From: Candidatus Zixiibacteriota bacterium
GTDB taxonomy: Bacteria > Zixibacteria > MSB-5A5 > GN15 > JACZUZ01
Reading direction: 5' to 3'
NCBI GenBank assembly: GCA_024280775.1
Contig: JAJRPM010000013.1
Coordinates: 186,001-250,000, forward strand
DNA length: 64,000 nt
Both the position numbers and the translations under genes were made by a program. A model generated the notes under the pieces. That model saw only the letters and a program-made list of their open reading frames with translations. It did no database searches and was not told where the DNA came from. Of this stretch, positions 709 to 40,440 are shown piece by piece. How positions within the stretch are numbered: the stretch's first letter is position 1; each line of letters starts with the position of its first letter.

Positions 709-785
<77 letters not shown>

Positions 786-829: not shown

Positions 830-1315
830 GGTGGGTTTTCCTTCGAAAAACGGATTTTCTAACAAACCTTCCGAGAAACGTTTTCCCCTTATCTGGAGCG
901 CACTTAGGGTTAAGCTTTTTCCCCACACCCTATCATTGCAAATTACTGAGGTCGTTGACAAGCAAGTCAAAGTGTGAAGCGTTTTACAAGCGTACTTAGC
1001 TGAACAGTCCAACCAAAGAACAACCTGTCAACTTTTCTCTCAAGTCGCAGTTCAACAATTATCAACCACATTTCTCGCAGAGGGGCGGCAAGAGATTTAT
1101 CGTGTCCGAATTGTGAATACCGATTTGCCAACGCAGTTCGCTAAGCATATTATGCTAATCGGTATTACTAGATTTTTGTGAGGAATGCCTCATAAACACT
1201 CTATTAGACATCGAGATGGTACAACTTATGGGTCCTCTCAGGACAATATCGCTCCCCCAATACGGACTAGGTTTCCTAAGGAGTAGACATTAAACCAAAA
1301 CATGCAGCTGAGCGA
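830..1315. other. Non-coding leader region before the sigma factor
   Basis: No convincing gene is visible. The notable structure is a nested inverted repeat at 1116-1166, listed separately. The short ORFs here lack ribosome sites or recognisable content. Confidence 0.5.
1116..1166. repeat. Nested inverted repeat upstream of the sigma gene
   Basis: Outer perfect 10-bp arms AATACCGATT (1116-1125) and AATCGGTATT (1157-1166) enclose an inner palindrome AGCATATTATGCT (1144-1156) that directly abuts the right arm. No T-run follows, so it is more like an operator or cruciform/RNA structure than a terminator. Confidence 0.6.
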
Positions 1316-2995: not shown

Positions 2996-5863
2996 TTACT
3001 TCAAGAGAGTCATTTTCTTAGTCATTTCGAACTCGCCAACTTTGATTCGATAGAGATACACACCTGATGCAAAGTCACTTGCATCCCAGTCAACATTTAC
3101 GATACCAGCGGGAGATTCCCCGGCAATCACTTGCACTTTCTGGCCTCTGATGTTGAAGATCTCCAACACCCATTCGGATTGACGAGGTATTTGGAGTTGA
3201 ATACGCGTGGATGGATTGAACGGATTCGGGAAATTCTGTGCAAGATTAAAGCCATCCGGAATTTGACCGTTGAACTCATCTTTGTCAAAACTACTATGTA
3301 TGGCATAACGCTCAGATAAGCCATGAGGCCCACTCTTGATAGTCAGGGGAACTCCTGGCTTAACAGTGTGATAGAAACCTGACTCAGAAACGAGCAGTAT
3401 CTCTGGAGCTTTACTATATCCTTCATCAAAAAAGCGTAATACGATATCCGCATTCGCTTGTGGTGAGCTAACTACTAGTGTGAACTGCCCATCAAGCTCA
3501 TTCGAGTTTAGAACAGTTTCAGCAAAACGCTCTTTGCCGCTTGACTCAATTCCAGTGGGTTCAACCCATACAACTATCGAAGGATTGGGGTACGGTGGTT
3601 TCGGGTAACCGACAGAGGCGGACATGTCATTGTTTTCATAGAGGTATGTGCAACAGTCCACTGAACCACCTGTCTCAGCAGAGATTCTCAGTTTCCAGCC
3701 TCCATCCGGCACATTTCGTTTCTGAGTTGGAGCAACATAGAGTGTTGAGGGAACAAGGAGCCGTACTCGATCCGAGGCGGAACAATTGACATTCATAAAA
3801 TAGCCTTGCCAAGGCGATAGTACTATAGAAGCCGGGACATAACCTGTATCTGAAAACATCCACAGGGTAGGATCTATTATGGCGCTATCGGCTGCTTCGG
3901 TAATTCCATATACAGTTCCATTGAAATCAATTCTGCAATCTGCTAAACCAACCAACATTGGGTAGGGTGACCCTATTTGGTTAAACCCTGAATCAAGGCG
4001 AATTGGGAAAAAATCATATCCTAACCCAACTGGCTCAGGCGGTAAAGCTGTGTATCCAGGAAAATTGATTGTGGCATCTACGCTACTGATGAGCCAATAA
4101 GATTTTCCAGGCTCGAACATTGTAAGTGTTGAATCAACACCGAACTCATCGTAGCCACCTGAGATATCCTTTGCTGGATCCCATCTCAGAGCACGCCAAC
4201 TACTCAAATGGCGAGTCCATGGCCCAAGAGCGCTTAACGTCGAATCCACGTTTGCTGGACTGGGAACCGCAGGGAAGCTGATCATCCTATACTTACGAGA
4301 TCTAACCGATGCAGCGCCCGATGATGTTACATTATTGATAGCAACAGGAATACGTATGTACGATCCGTCTTCGGGATACCGTAGCAATGCTCCTGTTTCT
4401 TCATGAATGATTTCGCCATAGAGTTCTAGACCCTCACGTGGCAATGGCGGATTAAGAGATGTGGTAAATTTGCCAGCTCCCATATCAGTAAGCATAAGCC
4501 TCTGCTCAACTTGTCGTTGTGACAGATCTGATAGAAACGCAGGTCGTCGAATGAAGATATCAGGAGATGTAAAGCCACTATCCACGGTAATCGAAAGATT
4601 GTCATCAACTGGAGTCAACTTGTTGATTCCAAATCCACGGAAGGAAACATCGCTAATCTTCGACAAAGTAAGATCTAAGCACAACGTGTCATAATCGAAC
4701 GTTCTTCCGACGAGTGTGTATTCCATTCTTGTGCCGTTGCGCTCAGCATATCCACCAAACCAACCATCATCATCTATGAGACCCGGTACTGTAATTGAAT
4801 CAAGCAGTACACCGCTAAGGTTTGTTTGGAAAATATGGCGCCGGAAGTCTCTTGCGCCTGCTACTACTAGTCTGTCGGAAGTTAGTTCCAAGATAGTCGT
4901 CGCTTCGTCACGTGAGTTTGAACCGTAAACAACGTCGTTAATAAAAACTCCTTGTCGATCTATATGCAGGAGGTAAATGTTTTTTGAACCGTTTGGCGGC
5001 GTTCCACCTGGCCCGTAGGAAAAAGTTTCGCCAACAATCCAAAATGAGCCATCAGGCGCTTGTGCGATATCTCTTCCCACATCTCTTGATGCTCCGCCAT
5101 AAACGCGCTCATTGGTAAGGTTGCCATTCAAATCCATTGTTGCAAAATATATATCCTGACCTCTTGGCGGGGCGCCTTGGTGTCCAACAATAGCGAGCTC
5201 TCCATTAGCGCACTCAATAACAGACCATGCCACACGATTTATAGAAGAGGTAAAAGTCTTTTGCAATCCAAAGACCAAAGTGTCAGGGTCGGAGATGCGG
5301 ACAAGCAGGCGACCGCCAAATATTTGATCAACCGTCTGGTCATGTTCACCAACAACGACAAATCTACCTTCAGAAGTTTGGATAATACTACTACCCCTTG
5401 AATCACCGGTTCCTCCCTGAATATCTGGAATACCCCAGATTCCATCTCCGGTCTCGGTTAGACGAAAAACAAGAACATCATCGTCCTGATCTATTCCTAC
5501 CCATGTTCTTCCAACTATCACGAATCGGCCGTTTCTAGAAACTATAGCATCTTCGGCGCGGGCGTTTTCGCGGCCTCGGTATTCCCATTCCCACTCAAAT
5601 GCGAAGCTCGAGTCTAGTTTTGTAACGAGAATATGCACTGAATCAATTGATGACCAGCAGTTACCAGCCAAATATTCTCTATCTCCAATCAGTAGGTAAC
5701 CACCATCACTAACTGGTAGAATTGCCTTCCCCCATTCTAGCTTAGCGCTTCCAATTGTGACGGTAGTGTCATTATTGAAGGCAGTCACATCAGGGCTTGT
5801 CACTACAATTGACAACAATGTCAACAGGTATAGTAGGGTAGGGCGAATATAGTAGTTATTCAT
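2996..5863 (-). CDS. Exported beta-propeller-like protein with C-terminal sorting domain
   Basis: The 955-residue protein has an N-terminal signal peptide (about residues 1-28). Its N-terminal half contains a recurring strand motif of the form G-G/R-[FYL]-[VLI]-[VI]-G (GGYLLIGD, GRFVIVGR, GRFVVVGE, GSFWIVGE), typical of beta-propeller blades or delta-60-type repeats. The middle is beta-rich without an assigned fold. Residues about 867-955 form the FCB-type C-terminal sorting/FlgD-like module (NFPNPFNPST, then SGVYLYRIKVG and a KKMTLLK end), so it is probably exported through a type IX-like route and held on the surface. It is the last gene of a minus-strand run, 28 bases after the small membrane protein gene. 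No enzymatic motif is visible. Confidence 0.8.
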   Translation of the reverse strand: MNNYYIRPTLLYLLTLLSIVVTSPDVTAFNNDTTVTIGSAKLEWGKAILPVSDGGYLLIGDREYLAGNCWSSIDSVHILVTKLDSSFAFEWEWEYRGRENARAEDAIVSRNGRFVIVGRTWVGIDQDDDVLVFRLTETGDGIWGIPDIQGGTGDSRGSSIIQTSEGRFVVVGEHDQTVDQIFGGRLLVRISDPDTLVFGLQKTFTSSINRVAWSVIECANGELAIVGHQGAPPRGQDIYFATMDLNGNLTNERVYGGASRDVGRDIAQAPDGSFWIVGETFSYGPGGTPPNGSKNIYLLHIDRQGVFINDVVYGSNSRDEATTILELTSDRLVVAGARDFRRHIFQTNLSGVLLDSITVPGLIDDDGWFGGYAERNGTRMEYTLVGRTFDYDTLCLDLTLSKISDVSFRGFGINKLTPVDDNLSITVDSGFTSPDIFIRRPAFLSDLSQRQVEQRLMLTDMGAGKFTTSLNPPLPREGLELYGEIIHEETGALLRYPEDGSYIRIPVAINNVTSSGAASVRSRKYRMISFPAVPSPANVDSTLSALGPWTRHLSSWRALRWDPAKDISGGYDEFGVDSTLTMFEPGKSYWLISSVDATINFPGYTALPPEPVGLGYDFFPIRLDSGFNQIGSPYPMLVGLADCRIDFNGTVYGITEAADSAIIDPTLWMFSDTGYVPASIVLSPWQGYFMNVNCSASDRVRLLVPSTLYVAPTQKRNVPDGGWKLRISAETGGSVDCCTYLYENNDMSASVGYPKPPYPNPSIVVWVEPTGIESSGKERFAETVLNSNELDGQFTLVVSSPQANADIVLRFFDEGYSKAPEILLVSESGFYHTVKPGVPLTIKSGPHGLSERYAIHSSFDKDEFNGQIPDGFNLAQNFPNPFNPSTRIQLQIPRQSEWVLEIFNIRGQKVQVIAGESPAGIVNVDWDASDFASGVYLYRIKVGEFEMTKKMTLLK

Positions 5864-5891
5864 TGAGGCATCGCTCTTGATAATAATTGTA

Positions 5892-6500
5892 CTATTGAGC
5901 CGGAGGTGGTGGTGGATTCGCTAAGGGTGTTGGGCCTACATGATCATCAGCAAACGGCCCTAAATCTAAGAGAGCGGCTGTACCTAAGAGCAGGCTGAGA
6001 GCTGCAGCGCCAAACCTAGATGACTTTCTTTTCCAAAAACTACGAGGCGGATTGGCGACAAGTCTCGCTTCTAAATAGATTGTTCGGAGCCGAGGAAATT
6101 CATCAAGTATTCTACTTTGCGTAAGCCTTTGAGTTGGGCGCGCTTCAAGCATATTTACCATACTAGCGAAAGCCAAAGAGTCAGAAAGCGTAGAATCGCT
6201 TACATTGATGACGTACGTATAAGCTAGCAATTCAAAAATGACCGCTCTTGTTTCAGCTTTCTTTACCAATCGACCTGAAACAAAATATTCTAAGGAATCG
6301 ACAAACATTGCAATAGCAATAGAGTCAGCGTCACCTCGACTTAGTTTGTCAGATATTACTGAGGCGTACGATGCAGCATCCTCCTCCACATTTTCACCAG
6401 CCCAAGTGGCCTGCAATTGTGTGGTAAGCATGACGAATCCAAAAGCTATAAAGCAGACGAATAGTCGCCGATGATAAGTCATAGATGGAAGACTTGACAT
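5892..6500 (-). CDS. Small membrane protein coupled to the caspase gene
   Basis: The 202-residue protein has an N-terminal hydrophobic segment (about 12-33, signal peptide or anchor), a mainly helical soluble middle, a basic stretch near FWKRKSSR, a second hydrophobic helix (AALSLLLGTAALL, about 168-181) and a proline-rich tail. I do not recognise a family. The start is decided by the TAATG overlap: its ATG shares one base with the caspase stop, implying translational coupling. That makes it a likely partner, inhibitor or anchor of the caspase-like protein, which is inference only. Confidence 0.65.
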   Translation of the reverse strand: MSSLPSMTYHRRLFVCFIAFGFVMLTTQLQATWAGENVEEDAASYASVISDKLSRGDADSIAIAMFVDSLEYFVSGRLVKKAETRAVIFELLAYTYVINVSDSTLSDSLAFASMVNMLEARPTQRLTQSRILDEFPRLRTIYLEARLVANPPRSFWKRKSSRFGAAALSLLLGTAALLDLGPFADDHVGPTPLANPPPPPAQ

Positions 6501-8101
6501 TAGCGGTTTTTTCCATTGCTGTCGGCCAATGTAAGCACTAATCTATTTGTACCTGGCTCTAAATCTACGATTGTCCCTGACTCGACAAACGGAAAAGACT
6601 TTCCGCCCAGAGATATGCTCTTAATAATTACATTTGCGCCAAATACTGTTTGCCCTACTCCAATGTTCACCAAGTATTGGCCTGGCGGAATAGAATTCAA
6701 CCCGCTGAACATCCCTATTTTTTCGGGGAATCCGTTAATCTCAAACGAAAACTTAGATCTTCGTAGGTGCTTAGGCGAGGATTCACTTATGGCAAATCTT
6801 ACATTCGCAGAACCTATTTGAATATCAGAGTTTTGGCGACCAACATCTACTATTGAAGCGTTGTTTACAAAGATGATACTGCTATCATTCAGCGGATTTC
6901 TTCGCGTGAGAGTCCGAACCGAATGCTCCCCTGGAGTTATCTCTACGTAACTGTTCGATTCTACAACTGCATCATCGATTAGCACATGAGTGTTGGCCGG
7001 TGCGTTGATGAACACTCTAATTTGACCATCGGCAGAGAACCACTCTCGAAGAATCGGTATATCGGGCAAGTTCTTTGCCGACTCTGCTAGAAAAAGAAAT
7101 GTTCCAGTGTATACATCCTCACGGAGATGACTGATTTGCGGATCAGGAGCCACAGGCAGGTCTCGGTCTCTCGCCAACTTTTGCACCAGGCTCGACGCGG
7201 ACATATAGATTTGTTCAATGTTGAGCATACCTGAATTGGTTAGATTCGTAAGCCCAGTGACAGTTTTCAAGAGTGAATATGTAAACAAGCTGTAGGTCTT
7301 GCTATCGTCGCCTGTAATGCTGTATGTTTTTTGAAGTCCCCGACCAGCGGTGAGAAGAATGCGACTGCCATTACCGTCCAGAGAATTGACTATTTGTGTT
7401 CGGTCATCTCTTCCCAGCCACTTTTCAGTATTAAGTCCCGAGGCGCAACAATCGACAATAAAAAGCATATGCTTATTCTTGTTGTGCCTGCTCCACTCTT
7501 TGACATCGGAGATCCGGATAACATCTAGGACATAGTCGTCCGGCTTTGCTCGGCCTAAAACCATATGGCCACCATTCATGTCAATTCCGTGACCTGAAAA
7601 ATAGAACAACAACCGATCTTCTGAGCCAAGAAGATTACGGAATTTGTTTGACATATAGTCGCCGATGAGATCTTTAGTAGCAACCTCATTGGTAGCCACA
7701 AATACTTCATCAAATCCGCCACTTCCAAGCAAGAAATTTGTCATTGCTTCAATATCGTTATAGACGAAAGGCAGGTTGGGGAAGGCTGGATCTTCATAAT
7801 TACTTACACCAACAAGAAATGCAACACTCCTTCCGTTAGGCAGAGGCGTTGATTCACTAATCGTTCCACCGTAGAGGGATTCCATCAGTGAGAAAAAACG
7901 TGGCTTGCTTGATTGTTCTCCACTACGTTGCCAGACCACAACACCGTCATCAAGAACCGTAGATGTGAATTCTTTATTGGCTAAGGCTACTTGAGTGAGT
8001 GTCTCGGATTCGACATTCCCCCCAGCCATAATGAAGATTATGGTAATTACAAATATTAGATTCTTCAAAAGAGACTCTATTGTATGAATACCGATGTTCA
8101 T
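6500..8101 (-). CDS. Secreted caspase-family (C14, metacaspase-like) protease
   Basis: The protein has 533 residues. A hydrophobic N-terminal segment (about 10-27) looks like a signal peptide or membrane anchor. A caspase-fold domain covers about 90-340: the beta-strand RSVAFLVGVSNY, then FYFSGHG with candidate catalytic His171, then FIVDCCASG with candidate catalytic Cys219 aligned to the metacaspase D-x-C-x-S-G motif. The His/Cys dyad is intact. C-terminal to it lies a PEGA-like beta domain (about 360-400, INAPANTHVLIDD) and a further beta-rich region. Family members cleave after basic or acidic residues; specificity is not readable here. It is followed by a coupled small membrane-protein gene and a large surface protein gene on the same strand, so a cell-envelope role is likely. 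Confidence 0.85.
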   Translation of the reverse strand: MNIGIHTIESLLKNLIFVITIIFIMAGGNVESETLTQVALANKEFTSTVLDDGVVVWQRSGEQSSKPRFFSLMESLYGGTISESTPLPNGRSVAFLVGVSNYEDPAFPNLPFVYNDIEAMTNFLLGSGGFDEVFVATNEVATKDLIGDYMSNKFRNLLGSEDRLLFYFSGHGIDMNGGHMVLGRAKPDDYVLDVIRISDVKEWSRHNKNKHMLFIVDCCASGLNTEKWLGRDDRTQIVNSLDGNGSRILLTAGRGLQKTYSITGDDSKTYSLFTYSLLKTVTGLTNLTNSGMLNIEQIYMSASSLVQKLARDRDLPVAPDPQISHLREDVYTGTFLFLAESAKNLPDIPILREWFSADGQIRVFINAPANTHVLIDDAVVESNSYVEITPGEHSVRTLTRRNPLNDSSIIFVNNASIVDVGRQNSDIQIGSANVRFAISESSPKHLRRSKFSFEINGFPEKIGMFSGLNSIPPGQYLVNIGVGQTVFGANVIIKSISLGGKSFPFVESGTIVDLEPGTNRLVLTLADSNGKNR

Positions 8102-8110
8102 ATTCTATTA

Positions 8111-8356
8111 TTAAGGATACAGATGATACCTATCCGATCCATTTTCAGCAGCTATTGATAGCCGTAAGAAATCCTGAAATTTGCTTACCCTAATCACTGT
8201 AAATCGCGCTGGAATCCACCTGCTTGTAGGGGGATAATTCTTTACCATCTGCCAAGACAATGTATACCCGACTTGGAATTTTGTCAACAGATTAATTGTT
8301 CGAAGAAGATTGAGGGTATGGTAAATATCTACGAATATTTGAGCAAGTAGGCCCAT
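8111..8356 (-). CDS. Possible 81-residue protein preceding the caspase gene
   Basis: This short reading frame lies nine bases upstream of the caspase gene on the same strand. The protein begins MGLLAQIFVDIYHTLNLLR, which could be an amphipathic helix, and its C-terminal half (ARFTVIRVSKFQDFLRLSI) looks compatible with strand-helix structure. No family is recognised and no strong ribosome site is seen. If real it heads the caspase gene run; otherwise this is the 5' leader of that run. Confidence 0.4.
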   Translation of the reverse strand: MGLLAQIFVDIYHTLNLLRTINLLTKFQVGYTLSWQMVKNYPPTSRWIPARFTVIRVSKFQDFLRLSIAAENGSDRYHLYP

Positions 8357-8366
8357 GCTCCCCAGT

Positions 8367-8407
8367 AAAACCCTTGATACACACGTCTAAAAACCCTTGA
8401 TACACAC
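8367..8407. repeat. Tandem 18-base direct repeat upstream of the caspase run
   Basis: AAAACCCTTGATACACAC occurs twice, at 8367-8384 and 8390-8407, exactly 23 bases apart (about two helical turns). It lies 11-51 bases upstream of the first reading frame of the minus-strand caspase run, where an activator or repressor would bind. Confidence 0.7.
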
Positions 8408-8712
8408 CTCTGTAGAATCTACCTCCCCTAGAAGGGTTTCCCAGTATCTGCTTTGAGTTTTCCGAAATCGAAATAAAGTAAAAAAGTGTTGTAACGTCTC
8501 ACTGCTACCGACGACCATATCCATGAAGGCAAGGTAACTCTAAAGTCTGACGCGAGTTACTACTTCAAACCGATACAGCTTCGCATTTTATGACAACAGC
8601 TCTAGAGAGCATACTATAAGGGAAGCATTCATTTGAGAAATTATTTCACGGATCTAACCTCATCAATGACATAAGCCATACGTAGAAGTGGGAATTGCGA
8701 ATCAAAAGCCAC

Positions 8713-8910: not shown

Positions 8911-9228
8911 ATGAACAAAAGAGTTTTACTGTCACCGATAAACCCTAGAGAATACATGAAGCGGAGTAATGGCACATCGATGACAAATTCAAACAAATGC
9001 GCTCGCTGCGGTAGAAACGTTTTGCAGAATGAAAGCGAGTGCAACGAATGCAGGGATTTGGTCAAAGTTACCAATGATACGAGTACCCCCAATTGTCCTA
9101 ATTGTCCCAATTGCCCAAATTGTAATTCCGCGGGATACAAAGTTGGTTCGGGAGCCCTTCTCGGCGTCTTTCCGACTGGCAATTCGTCAAGCGCTTTCGA
9201 ATGCAGCGCATGTGGCCACAAGTGGTAA
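8911..9228 (+). CDS. CxxC-rich mini-protein (zinc-ribbon-like)
   Basis: The protein has 105 residues, or about 90 or 82 if the ATGs at 8956 or 8980 are used; no start has a strong ribosome site. It contains CARC, CNEC, the run CPNCPNCPNC and a C-terminal FECSACGHKW, the last resembling the end of a zinc ribbon. The middle Cys cluster comes from a nine-base tandem repeat at 9091-9123, so part of it may be repeat expansion. Several pairs could bind zinc. Function is unknown. The antisense strand also holds a long ORF, which I consider a shadow because the CxxC pattern is coherent only on this strand. Confidence 0.55.
   Translation: MNKRVLLSPINPREYMKRSNGTSMTNSNKCARCGRNVLQNESECNECRDLVKVTNDTSTPNCPNCPNCPNCNSAGYKVGSGALLGVFPTGNSSSAFECSACGHKW
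9091..9123 (+). repeat. Nine-base tandem repeat encoding Asn-Cys-Pro
   Basis: About 3.5 copies of AATTGTCCY lie inside the CxxC-rich gene and translate as NCP units. Small changes between copies are synonymous or nearly so. Confidence 0.75.
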
Positions 9229-15528: not shown

Positions 15529-18500
15529 ATGAAAAACCTCTCTCGTACTACTTTTAGAACAATCCTAACCAGCGTAACGTTCCTCGCCCTTTTGGTCGGC
15601 GTGAACGCTAATGCTGTTGTAAGAGTTGTTTCAACATCCCCCGGCCCCGGTGAGTTTGGCTCACTTGGAGCCGCGGTAGCCGCATCCAATGGAGCAGGCT
15701 TGGCCGGTGATAGCATCCGTGTCATGCCTGGTGTCTACGATGAGGCTGGTATTGCCGTAACTGTAGCGGGACTGTCCATTCAAGGAATGGGCGCCTTAGC
15801 ATCAGATGTTGTTTTCAGCAATGCCACAGCTCCGGGAACAGGCACTCTGATTGATTGGAGTGGAACTTCCGGCGGTAGCATGGACAACATGACAATCACC
15901 GGATACGATGACGGTGTTTCAGCCCCTGGCACTGCCACTGGCTTTAGCGCCACTGGTCTAGTTTTGATTGCCAATGCAGCAGACGGTCTGGATATGAGAC
16001 TTTTTGCTAGCTCTCTTACTGGTAACACTGCGCATAGCAACGGCGGAAGCGGTATTTTGCTTCGTACTGCTGCTGGCGGAGCTAGCACAGTTGCGGCCAA
16101 CTGCCTTTATAACAACGGCGTTGGACCGACTGACAACGAGGCTAGTAATATCTGGTCTGGAAACTACTACGGTGGTTCAGATTGTGTTTCCCCATTCCCG
16201 ATCTTGGGAACTGGAGCTCTAAGTGATTTGGCCCCGTCCTGCAACGAGAACGAAGTTGCTGGTCCAGTCTCACATGAAGTCCTCGCAACTGAAACGTATA
16301 CCTTTACGTATACCTCTGTCGGTTGTATTGATGGCTCAAAAGGTCTGGCCGCTTTTGACTTTACTGCAACTTTCGACCCTGCAGTATTCGAGTATGTCCC
16401 TGGATCAGCCATTGATGGCAATGCGATTCCGGGACAGTTGCCGATGCAGGTCGATGAGTCGCTAGCATCTTCCGGTTTGATCCGTCTTTCCGCCGCCAGT
16501 GGTGGTGGTTTGGACATTCTGACTGGAACCGCAATGCTTGCCTCGATTGACCTCAAAGCGATAGATGACGCCGCCGCTTCAACAATTTCAGTGGCTTCTG
16601 ACTATCGTGATGGCGCCAATAATGCATGGCCTGTGGCTGGTGTTTCCTTATCAGCGGCTACTGTTGATATTACAGCCCCTACCTGTGCAAATCTGACACC
16701 TAACAATCCAGCTGGAGATGATGTCTATTCAGAAGGCGGACCTGGTGTTGTTGCAGATCACATCAATCTTGACGTATCCATTGATATTGCTGATGATTTC
16801 GACAGTCGTCGCATCATTTACAGAATCGATGGTGGACCGCTTCAGCACTTTGCGTGGAGCGCAGGTGGAGCAGGACCCGAAACACTCGGCCCTGTGAACA
16901 TCCCGCTAGGCGCTATAAGCGACGGTCCTCACACGTTGAAGATGTTTTCTGAGGATGTTGCTTTGAACCATGGTGACACGTGTTCGTACAGTTTCATGAT
17001 CGATCGCACCGCTCCGGTGGATCCGACAATTACATTGAAGGACGCCGATTGTAGCACGATTGACCCGAACTCCACGAACGATTCTAACATCGTTATCGAC
17101 ATCGTCGGTGACGGTACAGAAGTAACCATGGAGCTTTGGAATGGCGGTTGGCTCCCGAGTGAGGCGTTTGACGGCGTCGATCATCCGTTTGACATGGGTG
17201 GTGTGCTTGGAGCTAGAACCATATTTGTTCGCACAGCTGACAAATATGGAAACCGTAGTGGTCAGATTTCTGACAACATTGATTTGGATCTAGCTGCTCC
17301 TGTAGCCGTTGGTCCGATGACAATAGCTCCGGATCCGACATCCGATGGCGCGGTTTCTTTCACAATCGCAGGCCACGGTGGCGCTGATGCAGTTGAATGG
17401 TTAGCCTCAGAGACTGAAGCTGATCTTGACGACTGTAACAATGCTAATTGGGCTCCGAAAGCCGCTTTGACTATGGCTTTCCAACTCGCCTCTGGCGACG
17501 GCACACATACTATTTACTTCGCCTCACGTGACAAAGCTGGTAACGCCAGTAATCACTTGAGCGCCACAGTAGAAGTTGACTCTGATGCCGGCGCCGCTCC
17601 TGCGGTCGTCGTCTCGGCCACAACTGGCGAAGATTGTAGTGATAGTTGGGCTGTCGATGTTGAGGTGACTTACTCTCAGGCAGACGCAGCGTTCTTGAAT
17701 TTGACAACCAACGATGGAGCCGTAGTAGTTACAGTTCCGGCAACCGGCTCTCCGCAGATGGTGTCATATACATATGACGCTACTGATCGTGTTTGTGATT
17801 CAATGAACACTGTCAACGTCACAGTTACTGACGGCTCTTCACCAGCGAACGTAAGCGCCGCTGGTTCAGACGCTATCTTTGTCGATTGTGGCGTTCCGGC
17901 TGTTACCGCTGTTGTACTCAATAACGGTGATGCCTGGTCACAGAGCGCAACAGTAACCGTTCAGATCACTGGATCAGCGGATGGTGTTATGGTCAAGCTC
18001 GCTGAGCTTTGTGCTAGCGTTCCGGCCGCCACCGCAGTTCCGATTGACATGACTGGCGGCACCGGTAGCGTGACCTTTACGTTCCCGACTCCGGTTTGTG
18101 GCGCGAATTTCGTAGCTGTACAGTTGATCGATTGTGCAGGACGGATGTCTGTTATCGGTTGTAGCGCTGGTGTGGACTTTGATGACATCAAGGTTGACGA
18201 AGTCGATCCGCTGTTGGACAGCCTTGTCATTGACGCTGGCGCCGCTTTGAGCGTCGACACATCAGTTTCCGTTAAGCTTTTTGCTTCGGATAACTGTGGT
18301 CCGCTCGAGATGCGTCTCTCTGAAGATGCTTCCTTTGGTGGTGGCTTAGATCCGTTTGTTGCTTTCGTCGCAGTGAGTACTTTTGAAATCGCTGCTGGTG
18401 ATGGAACACACACAGTCTACGCCGAGGTGCGTGATGCTTCAAGTCGTTTGAGCGCAGCTGCTTCTGACGGTATTGATGTAGATCAAACTGATCCGGCGGT

Positions 18501-20115
18501 CGATGTAGGACAGTTGTTTATTCTCTCAGGTAATTCCGCCGCAGCAGCAGGATTTACGAATTCTGCCAGCGGTAATTCCTTGGAAGGTATCAATGGTCCT
18601 GCCGATGTGGCAACTATGCTCATCCGAGACTCTGTTACTAACGCCAACTTAACTGCTGGCTGGGTTCCGTTTGATGCAGCATCGTTTGCTTTGGCGGCCC
18701 TAGCTCCGCTTGGCGCTGAGCCAACAACCCTGCATGTACGTATCATTCTTACGGATAATGCTGGAAACGTTGGTCCATGGACAGATGTTTCAATTGGCTT
18801 TGCCTCTTCGTTTGCTAGTAGTGGCGCTTCAGCAATTCCTCCGGGAGCTGCAAGTGGCGTACCGGGTGGTAGCATGAAAATGTCATGGCCCGCGCAAACT
18901 GGCGCTCAGAACTACTTAGTTAAGTATGATCGCTGGGGCAATTATCCGTTCTTCAATACACCGGTTCCGACACCTCCTGCTACACTTTCTAGTGGGTTCC
19001 CGTTAGCGGGCCCCATTTCCGTAGCCGCTGGTTCCGATCCGGTAACGTTGAACTTTGACGCTTCAATTGATGGCACACCTGACATCTATGCAGTCTCAAT
19101 CTGGACTGTAGATATGTATGGTAACGCAACCCTGATACCGAACATCGATATACTTGAAACTAATTATATCCTTGGTGATGGCAAAGGCGCCGCCAATGAC
19201 TTCGACAATAAATTATCATTCGTCGATGAATTTGGTTTGCTCGCTGATGCTATGTTTACGGTCAACGGTGATGCTGGCTACAATCCTTATATGGATATTG
19301 GTCCGACACTTGGTGGTGACGCCAAGAATTATCCGATTCCGGATGATGCGGTTGAATTTGAAGATCTCGTAATCTTCGCTATCAACTTTGCGGCGGATCC
19401 TGCGGCCAAGACTGTGCCGGGAAGTCGCTCGTTTGCGTCATCCATCACAGTTGGAGCCTCTGTGCCAACGATGCTTGCTGAGCCGGGTTCAAAGATCCGT
19501 GTTCCGATAAGCATTTCAGAGCCGAATGCTGCGAAGGGAATGCATCTTGTTTTTGATTATGATAGAACAAGTCTGCGTTTAGTCGAAGTCAAAGCAGGCA
19601 AAATGTTTGAAACTGCCGCAGGCAAGACATTCTTCGCAGTGCGTCCTAATGTAGACAACATTGACATCAATGCTGTGTCTTTGGATGCGCCTACATATAA
19701 AGACAACGAAGTTGCAGTTCTCACTTTCGAAGCTATCACTACAACAGTAGTCGAATTGACCGATGTTGAATTGACAGTTCGCGATGCTGAGAATCAAAGC
19801 ATCGAAGTTGCCTTTAGCTCAACCCCAACTAGTGGCGGTTCGAGCATTCTTCCGAACACATTCGCTTTGGGTCAGAATTATCCTAACCCATTCAACCCGT
19901 CAACAAAGATTAACCTCTCGCTTCCGACAGCAAGTGAATACTCAATAGAGATATTCAATACTCTCGGACAAAGAGTGAAATCTTTTGAGGGCTATAGCGA
20001 CGCCGGTGTTGTATCGGTAGAGTGGAATGCTAGTGACAATGCTAGTGGCGTGTATTTCTATCGCGTCAAAGCTGGCGCTTTCGTTTCAACAAAGAAAATG
20101 GTACTACTCAAGTAA
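15529..20115 (+). CDS. 1528-aa modular surface protein (beta-helix, cohesin-like, Ig-like, dockerin-like, sorting tail)
   Basis: A signal peptide (residues 1-28, ending VNANA) is followed by a right-handed beta-helix-like stretch (about 30-215). A cohesin-like domain lies at about 240-375 (AAFDFTATFDPAVFEYVPG). Ig-like units of roughly 100 residues follow to about 1060, each starting near a [VD]-D-x-[TD]-x-P motif (DRTAPVDP, VDEVDPLLD, VDQTDPAVD). A dockerin-like Asp-rich segment is at about 1213-1290 and a second cohesin-like domain at about 1310-1430 (MHLVFDYDRTSLRLVEV). The sorting/FlgD-like tail runs from about 1440 to the end (NYPNPFNPST, SGVYFYRVKAG, KKMVLLK). It is probably exported and displayed on the cell surface; no catalytic motif is seen. 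A strong terminator follows. Confidence 0.8.
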   Translation: MKNLSRTTFRTILTSVTFLALLVGVNANAVVRVVSTSPGPGEFGSLGAAVAASNGAGLAGDSIRVMPGVYDEAGIAVTVAGLSIQGMGALASDVVFSNATAPGTGTLIDWSGTSGGSMDNMTITGYDDGVSAPGTATGFSATGLVLIANAADGLDMRLFASSLTGNTAHSNGGSGILLRTAAGGASTVAANCLYNNGVGPTDNEASNIWSGNYYGGSDCVSPFPILGTGALSDLAPSCNENEVAGPVSHEVLATETYTFTYTSVGCIDGSKGLAAFDFTATFDPAVFEYVPGSAIDGNAIPGQLPMQVDESLASSGLIRLSAASGGGLDILTGTAMLASIDLKAIDDAAASTISVASDYRDGANNAWPVAGVSLSAATVDITAPTCANLTPNNPAGDDVYSEGGPGVVADHINLDVSIDIADDFDSRRIIYRIDGGPLQHFAWSAGGAGPETLGPVNIPLGAISDGPHTLKMFSEDVALNHGDTCSYSFMIDRTAPVDPTITLKDADCSTIDPNSTNDSNIVIDIVGDGTEVTMELWNGGWLPSEAFDGVDHPFDMGGVLGARTIFVRTADKYGNRSGQISDNIDLDLAAPVAVGPMTIAPDPTSDGAVSFTIAGHGGADAVEWLASETEADLDDCNNANWAPKAALTMAFQLASGDGTHTIYFASRDKAGNASNHLSATVEVDSDAGAAPAVVVSATTGEDCSDSWAVDVEVTYSQADAAFLNLTTNDGAVVVTVPATGSPQMVSYTYDATDRVCDSMNTVNVTVTDGSSPANVSAAGSDAIFVDCGVPAVTAVVLNNGDAWSQSATVTVQITGSADGVMVKLAELCASVPAATAVPIDMTGGTGSVTFTFPTPVCGANFVAVQLIDCAGRMSVIGCSAGVDFDDIKVDEVDPLLDSLVIDAGAALSVDTSVSVKLFASDNCGPLEMRLSEDASFGGGLDPFVAFVAVSTFEIAAGDGTHTVYAEVRDASSRLSAAASDGIDVDQTDPAVDVGQLFILSGNSAAAAGFTNSASGNSLEGINGPADVATMLIRDSVTNANLTAGWVPFDAASFALAALAPLGAEPTTLHVRIILTDNAGNVGPWTDVSIGFASSFASSGASAIPPGAASGVPGGSMKMSWPAQTGAQNYLVKYDRWGNYPFFNTPVPTPPATLSSGFPLAGPISVAAGSDPVTLNFDASIDGTPDIYAVSIWTVDMYGNATLIPNIDILETNYILGDGKGAANDFDNKLSFVDEFGLLADAMFTVNGDAGYNPYMDIGPTLGGDAKNYPIPDDAVEFEDLVIFAINFAADPAAKTVPGSRSFASSITVGASVPTMLAEPGSKIRVPISISEPNAAKGMHLVFDYDRTSLRLVEVKAGKMFETAAGKTFFAVRPNVDNIDINAVSLDAPTYKDNEVAVLTFEAITTTVVELTDVELTVRDAENQSIEVAFSSTPTSGGSSILPNTFALGQNYPNPFNPSTKINLSLPTASEYSIEIFNTLGQRVKSFEGYSDAGVVSVEWNASDNASGVYFYRVKAGAFVSTKKMVLLK

Positions 20116-20376: not shown

Positions 20377-21792
20377 ATGAGAGAACGCACACCATCATTG
20401 TGTTACAAGTATGAGGCGCCTCGTAAATGGCTACTCGTCTTGAGCATTTGTATATTCCTAAGCATTTCCCAAAGCGTACATTCTGCAGAAAATTTCACTC
20501 TAACGCCTGATACTGTGTTTATAACGTCCGGTATAGGTTCCGAGTTTGACTTGCCTCTTGATATTGACGGGGCTGTAACCGGCCTAAAGCTATATCAAGT
20601 TGTTTTTGCCTTCGATAAGGCAAGAATTGATACTGTATCAATCACGGAAGGCCCATTGATGGGAACATCCAGCTCCCCAACAGCGCCATTCTTTGATGTG
20701 CTTCTAAATGACGATTCAACTACTCTTACCATCCAAAGTGTAATTCTCGGCAACGGATTCTCAGTTGACGGCCCAGGAAACCTTGCAACAATTCGACTCA
20801 GGGTAATAGGTGATGGCGTTGTAAATTTCAAAGTTCTGTCTCTGGCTGCAAAAGGATTGGGCAATGTTGACCTCTCCCCTTTTCCCACGGCATCGGGATC
20901 TATCTTTCAAGTAAATATACCACCGACTAGTTTCAACCTTCTCTTGCCGATCACAGATGATTCGATTCTTACTACTTCAACGCAGTCGATTGATTTTGAC
21001 TGGACAGAAAGTGGAACAATCTACCCCGGCGGTGGAGTAACCTACACCATGCAATATTCAACAGATTCAACATTCCCGACATTGGCCACAAGTGAGATCA
21101 CCGGTGTGATCCCTTCTAACTTATCAATTTCCGCCGCATCTTTCCCTGATAACAAATACTTTTGGCGAGTTATTGCCGTCGACGATAATGGATTTACTAC
21201 ATTTACCAACCAGACAAACTCATTTATTACGTCGGTTGATGTTCCTCCAGCAGTAATCGATTTGCTTCAACCGGCGAATGACTCCACCATCGTGAAAGAC
21301 CCAGGTGAAACGATAGAATTTCAATGGGAGTCCTCTTCAACTCCGTACCCTTCAAACCCCATTACATATACCCTGGCATATTCGACAAGTCTCACGTTCC
21401 ATGTCGACTCAACAATTACATTCCTGGGATTGTCAACACTATCTCAGATAATCTCCGTTGATGATTTAGAATTCAACGAGGCATATGTGTGGAGAGTTAC
21501 TGCCGTAGATAGCTTTGGCTTCGAAACACCATCCAACGGAATTCGGGCTTTCAGTCTAGTGCGCGGTAGCTGTTGTCTCACAGCTGGCGACGCTGACCAC
21601 AATGGGACCATGAATATCGCTGATGTGACATTTGAAATTTCAAGGATATTTTCGGGTGGACCGCCACCAGTATGCGCGGACGAAGCAGACGCTAACGGAG
21701 ATAATAAGTTCAATATCGCTGATGTGACTTTTCTCATAGCCCGTATTTTTTCTGGCGGCCCACCGCCTATTTGTGGCACAACAGGAATCTGA
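20377..21792 (+). CDS. Secreted cohesin-like/FnIII-like protein ending in a dockerin
   Basis: The 471-residue protein starts after a strong GGAGG ribosome site. A hydrophobic segment near residues 18-35 is the signal peptide. Residues about 38-175 resemble a cohesin domain (LKLYQVVFAFDKARIDTVSI). Two fibronectin III-like repeats follow (YFWRVIAVDDNGF, YVWRVTAVDSFGF). The C-terminus has a paired dockerin: two copies of a Ca-binding D-x-[DN]-x-[DN]-G loop plus helix (GDADHNGTMNIADVTF and DANGDNKFNIADVTF), each ending RIFSGGPPP. It lacks the sorting tail of its larger neighbour, so attachment through cohesin-dockerin binding to a sorted protein is plausible. Confidence 0.82.
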   Translation: MRERTPSLCYKYEAPRKWLLVLSICIFLSISQSVHSAENFTLTPDTVFITSGIGSEFDLPLDIDGAVTGLKLYQVVFAFDKARIDTVSITEGPLMGTSSSPTAPFFDVLLNDDSTTLTIQSVILGNGFSVDGPGNLATIRLRVIGDGVVNFKVLSLAAKGLGNVDLSPFPTASGSIFQVNIPPTSFNLLLPITDDSILTTSTQSIDFDWTESGTIYPGGGVTYTMQYSTDSTFPTLATSEITGVIPSNLSISAASFPDNKYFWRVIAVDDNGFTTFTNQTNSFITSVDVPPAVIDLLQPANDSTIVKDPGETIEFQWESSSTPYPSNPITYTLAYSTSLTFHVDSTITFLGLSTLSQIISVDDLEFNEAYVWRVTAVDSFGFETPSNGIRAFSLVRGSCCLTAGDADHNGTMNIADVTFEISRIFSGGPPPVCADEADANGDNKFNIADVTFLIARIFSGGPPPICGTTGI

Positions 21793-38706: not shown

Positions 38707-40440
38707 GTGGCTCCCCCTCGGCGAATACCTACTAAAGCGGAATTGTTGCGCTTGCAACGACAATTCAAGACCGATGCGCGTATCGCGGAGCGGCTTGGGA
38801 ATGTCGATCCGTACTTAGTTTCCTATTGGCGCCGCAAACGCAATGTCCCAAACTATAGCGCACCGAAATTTTCCGAGAAGGAAATCGGTGTTCTTTGGGA
38901 GCGTTTCGGTGATGATGACAGGTGTGGCGCGGAGTTAGGAGTTTCTAAGGGCGCGTTCTATAGTTGGCGTCGTCGCTATGGAATCAAAAACAAGCCGGCT
39001 TTTCTAAAGCTGGAACAAATGGAAATTAATTTCCCCGGAGACACCTCGCCGCGATCAATTTCCAACAATCAGGGCATCAGGCCGGCAACTCATAAGCTCA
39101 TTTTCAACAAGAGCGCTGATAGCGCCGCCAATAGCTCCAATGGGAACGCAATTCCGATTACTCCGGACCTGGTAGCCATCAACAACCCCACCGCGACTGC
39201 TATTAGTTATTATTTTGCGACAAACAAGAAACCTGCTCTGGCGGTAGAGCGCCTGGCGCTAATGCTCAAGGACGGCAAATTCTCACCCGATGCGGCAGGT
39301 CACCTGAACAATTCACTTTGCCCAGGCTCGGTTCATCAATGGGCAAAAAAGATGCAGGTGCGTCACGCATATAGTGAAGTGGACGGCAACATGTGGAATC
39401 GACTCTACTTCTCTGGTGGCGCTTTGCCGGGCCAGTTGGTTTTATGTCAGCGTGGGTTTGAAAGATTCGCCGGAGCGATCGGCGCTTTGGGATGGTGGAG
39501 TTCTGATGAAGATTTGGTGAGGACTTTTTCGACCGGAACAGCACATATCACCACACCAAAGGTTGTCCGAGTCAACATCACTGGGAAGCGCTATGCTCCG
39601 ATTTATGCTGTTGATATTCTGATAAACCTAGCGGCGAACCTAGCAGAAAAGGATTACTCCCAGAGAGCGCTGGAGTATGCCGGTTCAGCGATGATGAGTA
39701 TGCCGGTAGCTGACAGGCAGGCGTTATGCGCAATTGGTTCTTTGATAGATGTGCGCTCAGCTCTAACACCCTGTGACACAGTTACAGTACGTCACACAGC
39801 CACGCTGGGGAGTTGGAAGTTTGATCAAGTTTCTCCAGATCGTGACGCGGAGTTTGTTGATTCATATCAATTCAATATTGAGTCAGTAAAACCGATGGTT
39901 GCAATAAAACGCGCTCTAGATGGAGTCGGCGAATTCTCTCAGCAATCACAATTGTCATTATCACAAGAAACAACTGATTCATCGTCCTCCGAGAATAATA
40001 CTAACACCAAGAAACATTCCGTTACCTTTCACACTGCGCAGGAAGTCACAGGCTTAGGCGTGGATGTGGTATTCATAGGCGGCTCCCCCGGTGGAGACTA
40101 TGAATCTCTGCGCAAAGCCGCCGAGGCGTTGCATGGGAAGAAAGTCGCCGATGAGGTTCGGTTGCTGGTCTCACCGACGTCCCGGGAAGTGTACCTTCGC
40201 TCGCTTAAGCGAGGAATCCTCCGTCAGCTGATTGAAGCGGGAGCTGTGATTCTCAATCCGGGGGTTGATTCAACCTCTCTAGGTCTATTTGGTATTAGTC
40301 CCGCTGCAAAAGTTGCCACTACCTCTGTTGAGCCCTTGTTTTCCTCTGCCGAAAATACTGCGGACCGCTATGTAGTATCTCCTCTGACTGCCGCTATCTC
40401 CGCTGTCAATGGTCATTTGCTTGACCCGCGCGGTAATTGA
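38707..40440 (+). CDS. HTH-aconitase/LeuC fusion lacking Fe-S and DSH residues
   Basis: The 577-residue protein starts at a GTG with an AGAGG site upstream. Residues 11-50 and 56-97 look like two helix-turn-helix units (IAERLGNVDPYLVSYWRRK; CGAELGVSKGAFYSWRRRYG). From about 150 to the end it follows the large subunit of 3-isopropylmalate dehydratase/aconitase in order: PGQLVLCQRGFERFAGAIGAL (242-261), VVRVNITGK, ALEYAGSAMMSMPVADRQAL (321-340), VDVVFIGGSPGGD (452-464), VSPTSREV, NPGVDSTSLGL (517-527) and YVVSPLTAAISAVNGH (555-570). Where LeuC has GDSHT there is CQRGF, where it has IGSCTN the Cys is Ser460, and both Cys of GCSMC are absent. It therefore cannot hold the usual 4Fe-4S cluster. A DNA-binding regulator using the fold for sensing or dimerisation is the best guess. 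Confidence 0.78.
   Translation: MAPPRRIPTKAELLRLQRQFKTDARIAERLGNVDPYLVSYWRRKRNVPNYSAPKFSEKEIGVLWERFGDDDRCGAELGVSKGAFYSWRRRYGIKNKPAFLKLEQMEINFPGDTSPRSISNNQGIRPATHKLIFNKSADSAANSSNGNAIPITPDLVAINNPTATAISYYFATNKKPALAVERLALMLKDGKFSPDAAGHLNNSLCPGSVHQWAKKMQVRHAYSEVDGNMWNRLYFSGGALPGQLVLCQRGFERFAGAIGALGWWSSDEDLVRTFSTGTAHITTPKVVRVNITGKRYAPIYAVDILINLAANLAEKDYSQRALEYAGSAMMSMPVADRQALCAIGSLIDVRSALTPCDTVTVRHTATLGSWKFDQVSPDRDAEFVDSYQFNIESVKPMVAIKRALDGVGEFSQQSQLSLSQETTDSSSSENNTNTKKHSVTFHTAQEVTGLGVDVVFIGGSPGGDYESLRKAAEALHGKKVADEVRLLVSPTSREVYLRSLKRGILRQLIEAGAVILNPGVDSTSLGLFGISPAAKVATTSVEPLFSSAENTADRYVVSPLTAAISAVNGHLLDPRGN

Follow-up and report, generated by a model that had tools for sequence, protein, structure and literature searches.

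A caspase gene run with export signals converging on a sigma/anti-sigma pair in a Zixibacteria genome, and related loci in its order

Genes and signals at the locus

The genes considered here lie near one end of a 64,000-nucleotide stretch of DNA from a Candidatus Zixiibacteriota bacterium (genome G000; contig JAJRPM010000013.1, positions 186,001 to 250,000), which is referred to as the window. Three genes follow one another on its minus strand, encoding a 533-residue caspase of family C14 (6500–8101), a 202-residue orphan protein (5892–6500) and a 955-residue protein with a sorting tail (2996–5863). Converging on them from the plus strand are the genes for a 181-residue extracytoplasmic function (ECF) sigma factor (1316–1861) and a 328-residue anti-sigma factor (1958–2944), the last of which ends 51 nt, stop codon to stop codon, from the 955-residue gene. 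An initial annotation, made by a model from the letters alone, had described a secreted caspase-like gene run convergent with a sigma/anti-sigma pair, and all the genes that it named are where it placed them. The three minus-strand genes appear to form one operon, since they share a strand, the caspase stop codon overlaps the start of the 202-residue gene in the sequence TAATG, and the gap to the 955-residue gene is 28 nt. All three proteins begin with export-like segments.

The caspase matches PF00656 with an E-value of 1.3e-11 (45.1 bits; cut-off 21.4) and is the sole match to this family in its genome. Its catalytic dyad, His171 (codon 7589–7591) and Cys219 (codon 7445–7447), had been called intact, and an alignment of 37 caspase relatives (A5) bears this out: the histidine is invariant and the cysteine is kept in at least 90% of the sequences. 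The caspase fold is supported by a predicted structure (AlphaFold model m0a336c1036c6), in which most of the catalytic domain is modelled with confidence, residues from about 91 to 220 mostly having predicted local distance difference test (pLDDT) values over 90; the C-terminal part, from about residue 345, is beta-rich and modelled with low confidence. This predicted model resembles caspases and the paracaspase MALT1, with Z about 20 (3uo8_B: Z 20.9, 3.0 Å over 208 residues). A sequence search against solved structures gave no match. The proposed signal peptide agrees with a hydrophobic N-terminal segment, and the two closest homologues also start in a signal-peptide-like manner. From its sequence, the caspase is apparently exported and apparently active. 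A defence or phage origin was considered for the window genes and rejected, as PADLOC and PHROGs gave just generic caspase and sigma matches and one weak ZorE row for the sigma factor (E 0.0015).

The sigma/anti-sigma pair is equally recognizable. The ECF factor scores 62.2 bits against TIGR02937 (cut-off 42.9) and 80.5 bits against a hidden Markov model (HMM) of relatives' ECF factors made without it. The anti-sigma factor matches zf-HC2 (PF13490) at 24.4 bits (cut-off 22.2) and consists of two zf-HC2-type fingers, a hydrophobic stretch at about residues 150–165, taken to be a membrane helix, and an outer domain, in keeping with the double-finger anti-sigma factor originally proposed.

The 202-residue protein has a signal-like N-terminus, a helical middle, a C-terminal hydrophobic helix and a proline-rich tail, and its description as a small, TAATG-coupled membrane protein fits both the overlap and the hydrophobic helix. 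Pfam, PHROGs and PADLOC gave no match to it and NCBIfam nothing above noise, and no homologue was found in 145 other related genomes or among 6749 open reading frames (ORFs) of the window and the fetched loci. (A single-sequence structure model had a pLDDT of 44 and was not used.) The 955-residue protein ends in a type A sorting tail of the type IX secretion system (residues 878–951), with 30.5 bits against PF18962 (cut-off 27) and 39.8 bits against TIGR04183 (cut-off 23). It had been called a sorted beta-propeller protein. Its sorting tail is clear; the propeller amounts to about four short repeats discerned by eye, and no Pfam propeller was found even at E 10.

Upstream of the caspase gene, a possible 81-residue gene (8111–8356, minus strand) is probably not a gene at all: its codon use, at -0.15 bits per codon, is like that of antisense ORFs, and it has no family match in Pfam, NCBIfam or PHROGs. 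The tandem repeats reported there do exist (8367–8411; Tandem Repeats Finder), their extent being just two copies of a 23-nt unit, at least 266 nt upstream of the caspase start and with no further exact copies in the genome. Promoters and terminators are predicted in the window about as often as in shuffled sequence. An exact TCAGGA-N14-CAATA pair, ending 53 nt before the ECF start (1238–1262, plus strand) and 51 nt before the caspase start (8153–8177, minus strand), would be a candidate shared promoter motif; as a pair of this kind arises in 24% of controls, it is a lead only and not significant.

Conservation of the run and of the anti-sigma family

How much of this arrangement is found elsewhere? 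The antiporter gene and the tRNA-Met gene (709–785, plus strand; ARAGORN) to the left of the locus are present in all three relatives of the same family, and the tRNA gene is the last feature held in common. The other ORFs of the window have no counterpart in the next 36 kb of a genome of the same genus (for the other two relatives, only short contigs are available), and DNA similarity to relatives resumes at about 22.5 kb, repeated tail and dockerin sequences aside. This places the genes in a variable segment. A mobile island borne by the tRNA gene was considered and rejected, as the 3' end of the tRNA is not repeated in the window and no integrase was noticed among its ORFs.

No relative of the full-length caspase was found in the 145 other related genomes, nor elsewhere among the 132 genomes of the phylum; outside its own genome, the related set of 146 (own included) matches its catalytic core only, at 29% in the best-scoring match. 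The run is therefore not conserved in gene order, as neither a full-length caspase nor the 202-residue gene occurs in the other genomes of that set. Scattering of the genes in all relatives had been named as an outcome that would speak against the original proposal, and it half applies to the caspase run; loss of the dyad, named likewise, was not observed. A contig search with the caspase alone found nothing. With a four-sequence alignment, the search found two loci, L086 from a deltaproteobacterium and L087 from an acidobacterium, whose caspases are the closest homologues, at 36 and 37% over the aligned length and 44 and 47% over the best segments. Both start with signal-like sequences, and that of L086 runs on into an Lcl_C domain. 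Searches with the caspase returned 50 plasmid records, none spanning 80% of the query, and two weak viral loci. (On one contig of a relative, L032 at G046:C51, four large C14 caspases lie close together; three of them fall within the fetched stretch, with long N-terminal extensions.)

The sigma pair, in contrast to the run, belongs to a conserved class of locus. The window anti-sigma factor alone found 16 other loci, 9 of which have a TPR-CHAT protease beside the ECF/anti-sigma pair. A profile (A4) of 24 anti-sigma factors, 21 of them from CHAT loci, was searched in all 80 genomes of the order, and the counts that follow rest on its 52 strongest matches (at least 88 bits). The window protein is the only A4 match in its genome and scores 79.9 bits against an HMM built without it. 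A TPR-CHAT protease, also of caspase fold, is encoded within 5 kb of 38 of the 52 anti-sigma genes, where about 0.28 would be expected; among the 28 that did not seed the profile, CHAT is present at 17. The CHAT set used here comprised 65 rows (E up to 2.6e-53, plus three fragments), leaving out a second class and weaker rows. The figure of 38 is therefore a minimum, since a weak row outside this set (E 8e-5, at a contig end) adjoins an anti-sigma gene at G063:C345. Counted from the CHAT side, such an anti-sigma factor is present at 28 of 47 fetched TPR-CHAT loci, several of the others being cut by contig ends. The window ECF factor groups with 14 ECF factors, all of which have such an anti-sigma factor and 10 of which are CHAT-linked (support 96/91, on a long branch).

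The CHAT proteases at these loci carry export signals. An N-terminal hydrophobic segment was found in 50 of 53 members of the anti-sigma-associated class versus none of 12 in the second class, with CHATs below 100 bits or 600 residues, those whose start is cut by a contig end and duplicates left out of the count. In all 59 examined, the catalytic His and Cys are conserved. Because these proteases are exported, they would share a compartment with the outer domain of the anti-sigma factor. Loci such as L173, L176 and L038 resemble the window in their anti-sigma family, in having an exported caspase-fold protease and, at 13 of the 38 CHAT-linked genes, in the convergent layout, the other 25 being on the same strand. 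A surface protein with a sorting tail is also shared: in 10 of 42 pairs, one is encoded less than 500 bp from the ECF gene on the opposite strand. These loci differ from the window in that the protease is a TPR-CHAT and not a C14 caspase, and in that their surface protein is, as a rule, encoded divergently from the ECF gene and outside the protease operon. It is the class of locus that is conserved, not the exact gene run.

Exported proteases of other families adjoin some pairs that lack an adjacent exported CHAT, namely an S8 subtilase at L178 and L268 and, at L265, an M4 protease of the thermolysin type. At L039 and L261, both of which have a CHAT as well, subtilases are found on the divergent side, and no such protease was seen at the non-CHAT pairs L262, L263, L264, L266 and L267. 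At L268 (2466–15155), the pair has as neighbours a secreted protein with a beta-propeller and a dockerin, a convergent subtilase that bears dockerins, and a second-class CHAT. Secreted proteins at the relatives' CHAT loci carry dockerins too.

The second CHAT class is non-exported and about 920 residues long (L212, 4506–8480; also L208, L209, L210, L214, L216, L218, L219 and L220). Its genes form a conserved triad of ECF factor, a gene of about 200 codons and CHAT, a layout that recalls sigma-Csx30-Csx29, and the middle protein has a motif like FDS..LPLPEGVRPA at all nine of the loci read, out of 13.

Relation of the caspase to the sigma pair

Does the caspase belong with the neighbouring pair? 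The gene content, the export signals, the intact dyads, the fold and the link of this anti-sigma family to exported CHATs are shown by the data above; from these we infer that it does, that it acts on the anti-sigma factor, and that a regulon of surface genes follows. The locus would then be a variant of a module common in the order, made up of an ECF factor, an anti-sigma factor that spans the membrane and an exported protease of caspase fold, which acts on the anti-sigma factor and so frees the sigma factor; we hold this reading tentatively, giving it a little less than an even chance. The module would often include a sorted or dockerin-bearing surface protein. In the window, the C14 caspase would replace the TPR-CHAT of the relatives, its operon also encoding a membrane protein and a protein sorted by type IX secretion. 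An envelope signal would activate the exported protease, which would cut the anti-sigma factor in its outer domain or signal to that domain in some other way. Once released, the ECF factor would transcribe its own operon and surface genes, including that of the surface protein.

A link between protease and sigma factor is plausible because such anti-sigma factors adjoin exported CHAT proteases at 38 of 52 places in the order, and this linkage is a hint, though no proof, that the switch is operated by the protease. The genome of the window has one A4 anti-sigma gene and one C14 caspase gene, near each other, and the chance of so small a gap within that genome is about 0.003; it has no CHAT (no PF12770 match). 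The system originally envisaged, in which a caspase, its membrane partner and a surface protein are under sigma control, thus survives in part: the exported caspase, the overlapping membrane partner and the sorted protein are all present and the sigma link is plausible, but the run is not conserved.

Several observations weigh against the proposed switch. Among 39 C14 caspase places in the order, that of the window is the only one less than 5 kb from such an anti-sigma gene, and this adjacency is not significant by itself, with 0.118 pairs expected over the order (P = 0.11). None of 26 control C14 loci in the order adjoins such an anti-sigma gene, nor does any of 77 caspase loci elsewhere, of which two have an ECF gene within 5 kb. 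The caspase run and the sigma pair are on opposite strands with the 955-residue gene between them, and the outer domain of the window anti-sigma factor is weakly like those of the CHAT-linked ones (hmmsearch E 0.0026; hhalign probability 15.9%). The orthologues at L086 and L087 are cut by contig ends, leaving their downstream genes unseen, and no sigma gene was seen upstream. Given the expected number of about 0.12 pairs and the unlinked controls, the suggestion that a C14 caspase has taken the place of CHAT leans on the CHAT loci and not on the window.

The same statistics lend weight to a simple coincidence, in which the sigma pair and the caspase operon were separately acquired into the variable segment by the tRNA gene and do not interact. 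The convergent operons, the variability of the segment and the lack of any other C14 caspase linked to such an anti-sigma factor would all fit chance neighbours. Against this stand the strong linkage of the pair's family to exported caspase-fold proteases, in a genome that has no CHAT, and the small gap within that genome, and we regard coincidence as a serious, if rather doubtful, explanation. The caspase operon might also be a surface-processing cassette, the caspase and the 202-residue protein maturing or shedding the 955-residue sorted protein while the sigma pair is incidental or merely sets expression. PorU, the sortase of type IX secretion, is in the same protease clan as caspases, which counts in favour of such a role, as do the single operon and the export-like segments on all three of its products. 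Many proteins of these genomes, however, have sorting tails with no caspase alongside (tail-like DNA recurs in G001, G002 and G003), and no orthologous locus with a sorted neighbour was seen; a processing cassette is an improbable account of the locus.

A cell-death or defence system akin to those of EACC1 and EACC2, with the 202-residue protein as membrane effector, is more improbable still. The best NCBIfam match of the caspase is indeed the "caspase, EACC1-associated type" (NF047832), and the generic caspase model of PADLOC matches its catalytic core. EACC1 systems, a caspase with a membrane component, have two genes (PMC7159879), and EACC2-caspase loci described in 2021 include an ECF factor and a TPR protein (PMC8195603), so that likenesses to the window exist in the parts of these papers drawn on here. 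But the NCBIfam score is 90.5 bits, below the cut-off of 140, and the published EACC1, the partner with a single transmembrane segment, is a 5' gene (PMC7159879), while the 202-residue gene lies 3' of the caspase and is unmatched in NCBIfam, where the presence of an EACC1 model was unchecked. Neither the constant component of these systems nor an effector domain was found at the locus, the gene order differs, and the window caspase is exported.

Published precedents and neighbouring features

To our knowledge, most discussion of bacterial caspases and CHAT proteases treats them as cytosolic enzymes of defence or death, for which no substrates are known. The exported subset described here is conserved and tied to an anti-sigma factor that spans the membrane, which makes this factor a concrete candidate substrate, open to simple testing.

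Both caspase-sigma neighbours and a cytosolic precedent for the proposed logic have already been published; the comparisons made here draw on parts of the papers cited. Craspase (type III-E: Cas7-11, TPR-CHAT Csx29, Csx30 and CASP-sigma; PMC10028731) resembles the window in that genes for a caspase-fold protease, an ECF-type sigma factor and an inhibitor of that factor go together. Csx29 cleaves Csx30, the sigma-factor inhibitor, and this proteolysis is proposed to free the sigma factor (PMC10028731). Craspase is cytosolic and triggered by RNA, however, whereas the window protease is exported and the anti-sigma factor spans the membrane. (No Cas7-11 or CRISPR genes turned up among the ORFs and families looked at, in which no search was aimed at them.) The authors of that work compare their system with DegS-RseA, and DegS-RseA-RpoE (PMC10028731, PMC8103513) is like the window in combining an envelope protease, a membrane-spanning anti-sigma factor and an ECF factor. 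DegS is an HtrA serine protease, unlike the caspase-fold enzyme here, and the parts of the two texts drawn on mention no caspase-fold site-1 protease. Metacaspase operons with sigma-70 factors were reported in 2012 from Myxococcus, Anaeromyxobacter, Haliangium, Sorangium, Ralstonia and Fibrobacter (PMC3501461). There, too, a caspase gene stands beside a sigma gene, but within the same operon, and the relevant part of that paper describes neither export nor an anti-sigma type nor a substitution by CHAT.

Searches of the open PMC literature listed no paper in which an exported CHAT or caspase is combined with a membrane anti-sigma factor. A wider generalization is unlikely, but may be worth stating: exported caspase-fold proteases (usually TPR-CHAT, C14 here, with S8 or M4 proteases perhaps taking their place elsewhere) may be interchangeable front ends of ECF switches that turn on surface proteins, an envelope counterpart of Craspase with the outer domain of a transmembrane anti-sigma factor as the site on which the caspase-fold enzyme acts. 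If true, the protease/anti-sigma logic of Craspase and DegS would extend to caspase-fold enzymes outside the cytoplasm.

A few other features of the window can be mentioned. Two cohesin-domain proteins are encoded at 15529–20115 and 20377–21792; the former has a type IX sorting tail, and a weak dockerin is seen in the latter. A 105-residue ORF with a weak codon score (8911–9228) is rich in cysteine pairs and contains a zinc-ribbon-like CPNCPNCPNC run. Finally, a 577-residue protein (38707–40440) has an aconitase-family domain in Pfam, preceded by about 115 N-terminal residues that, on inspection by eye, resemble repeated DNA-binding helices.

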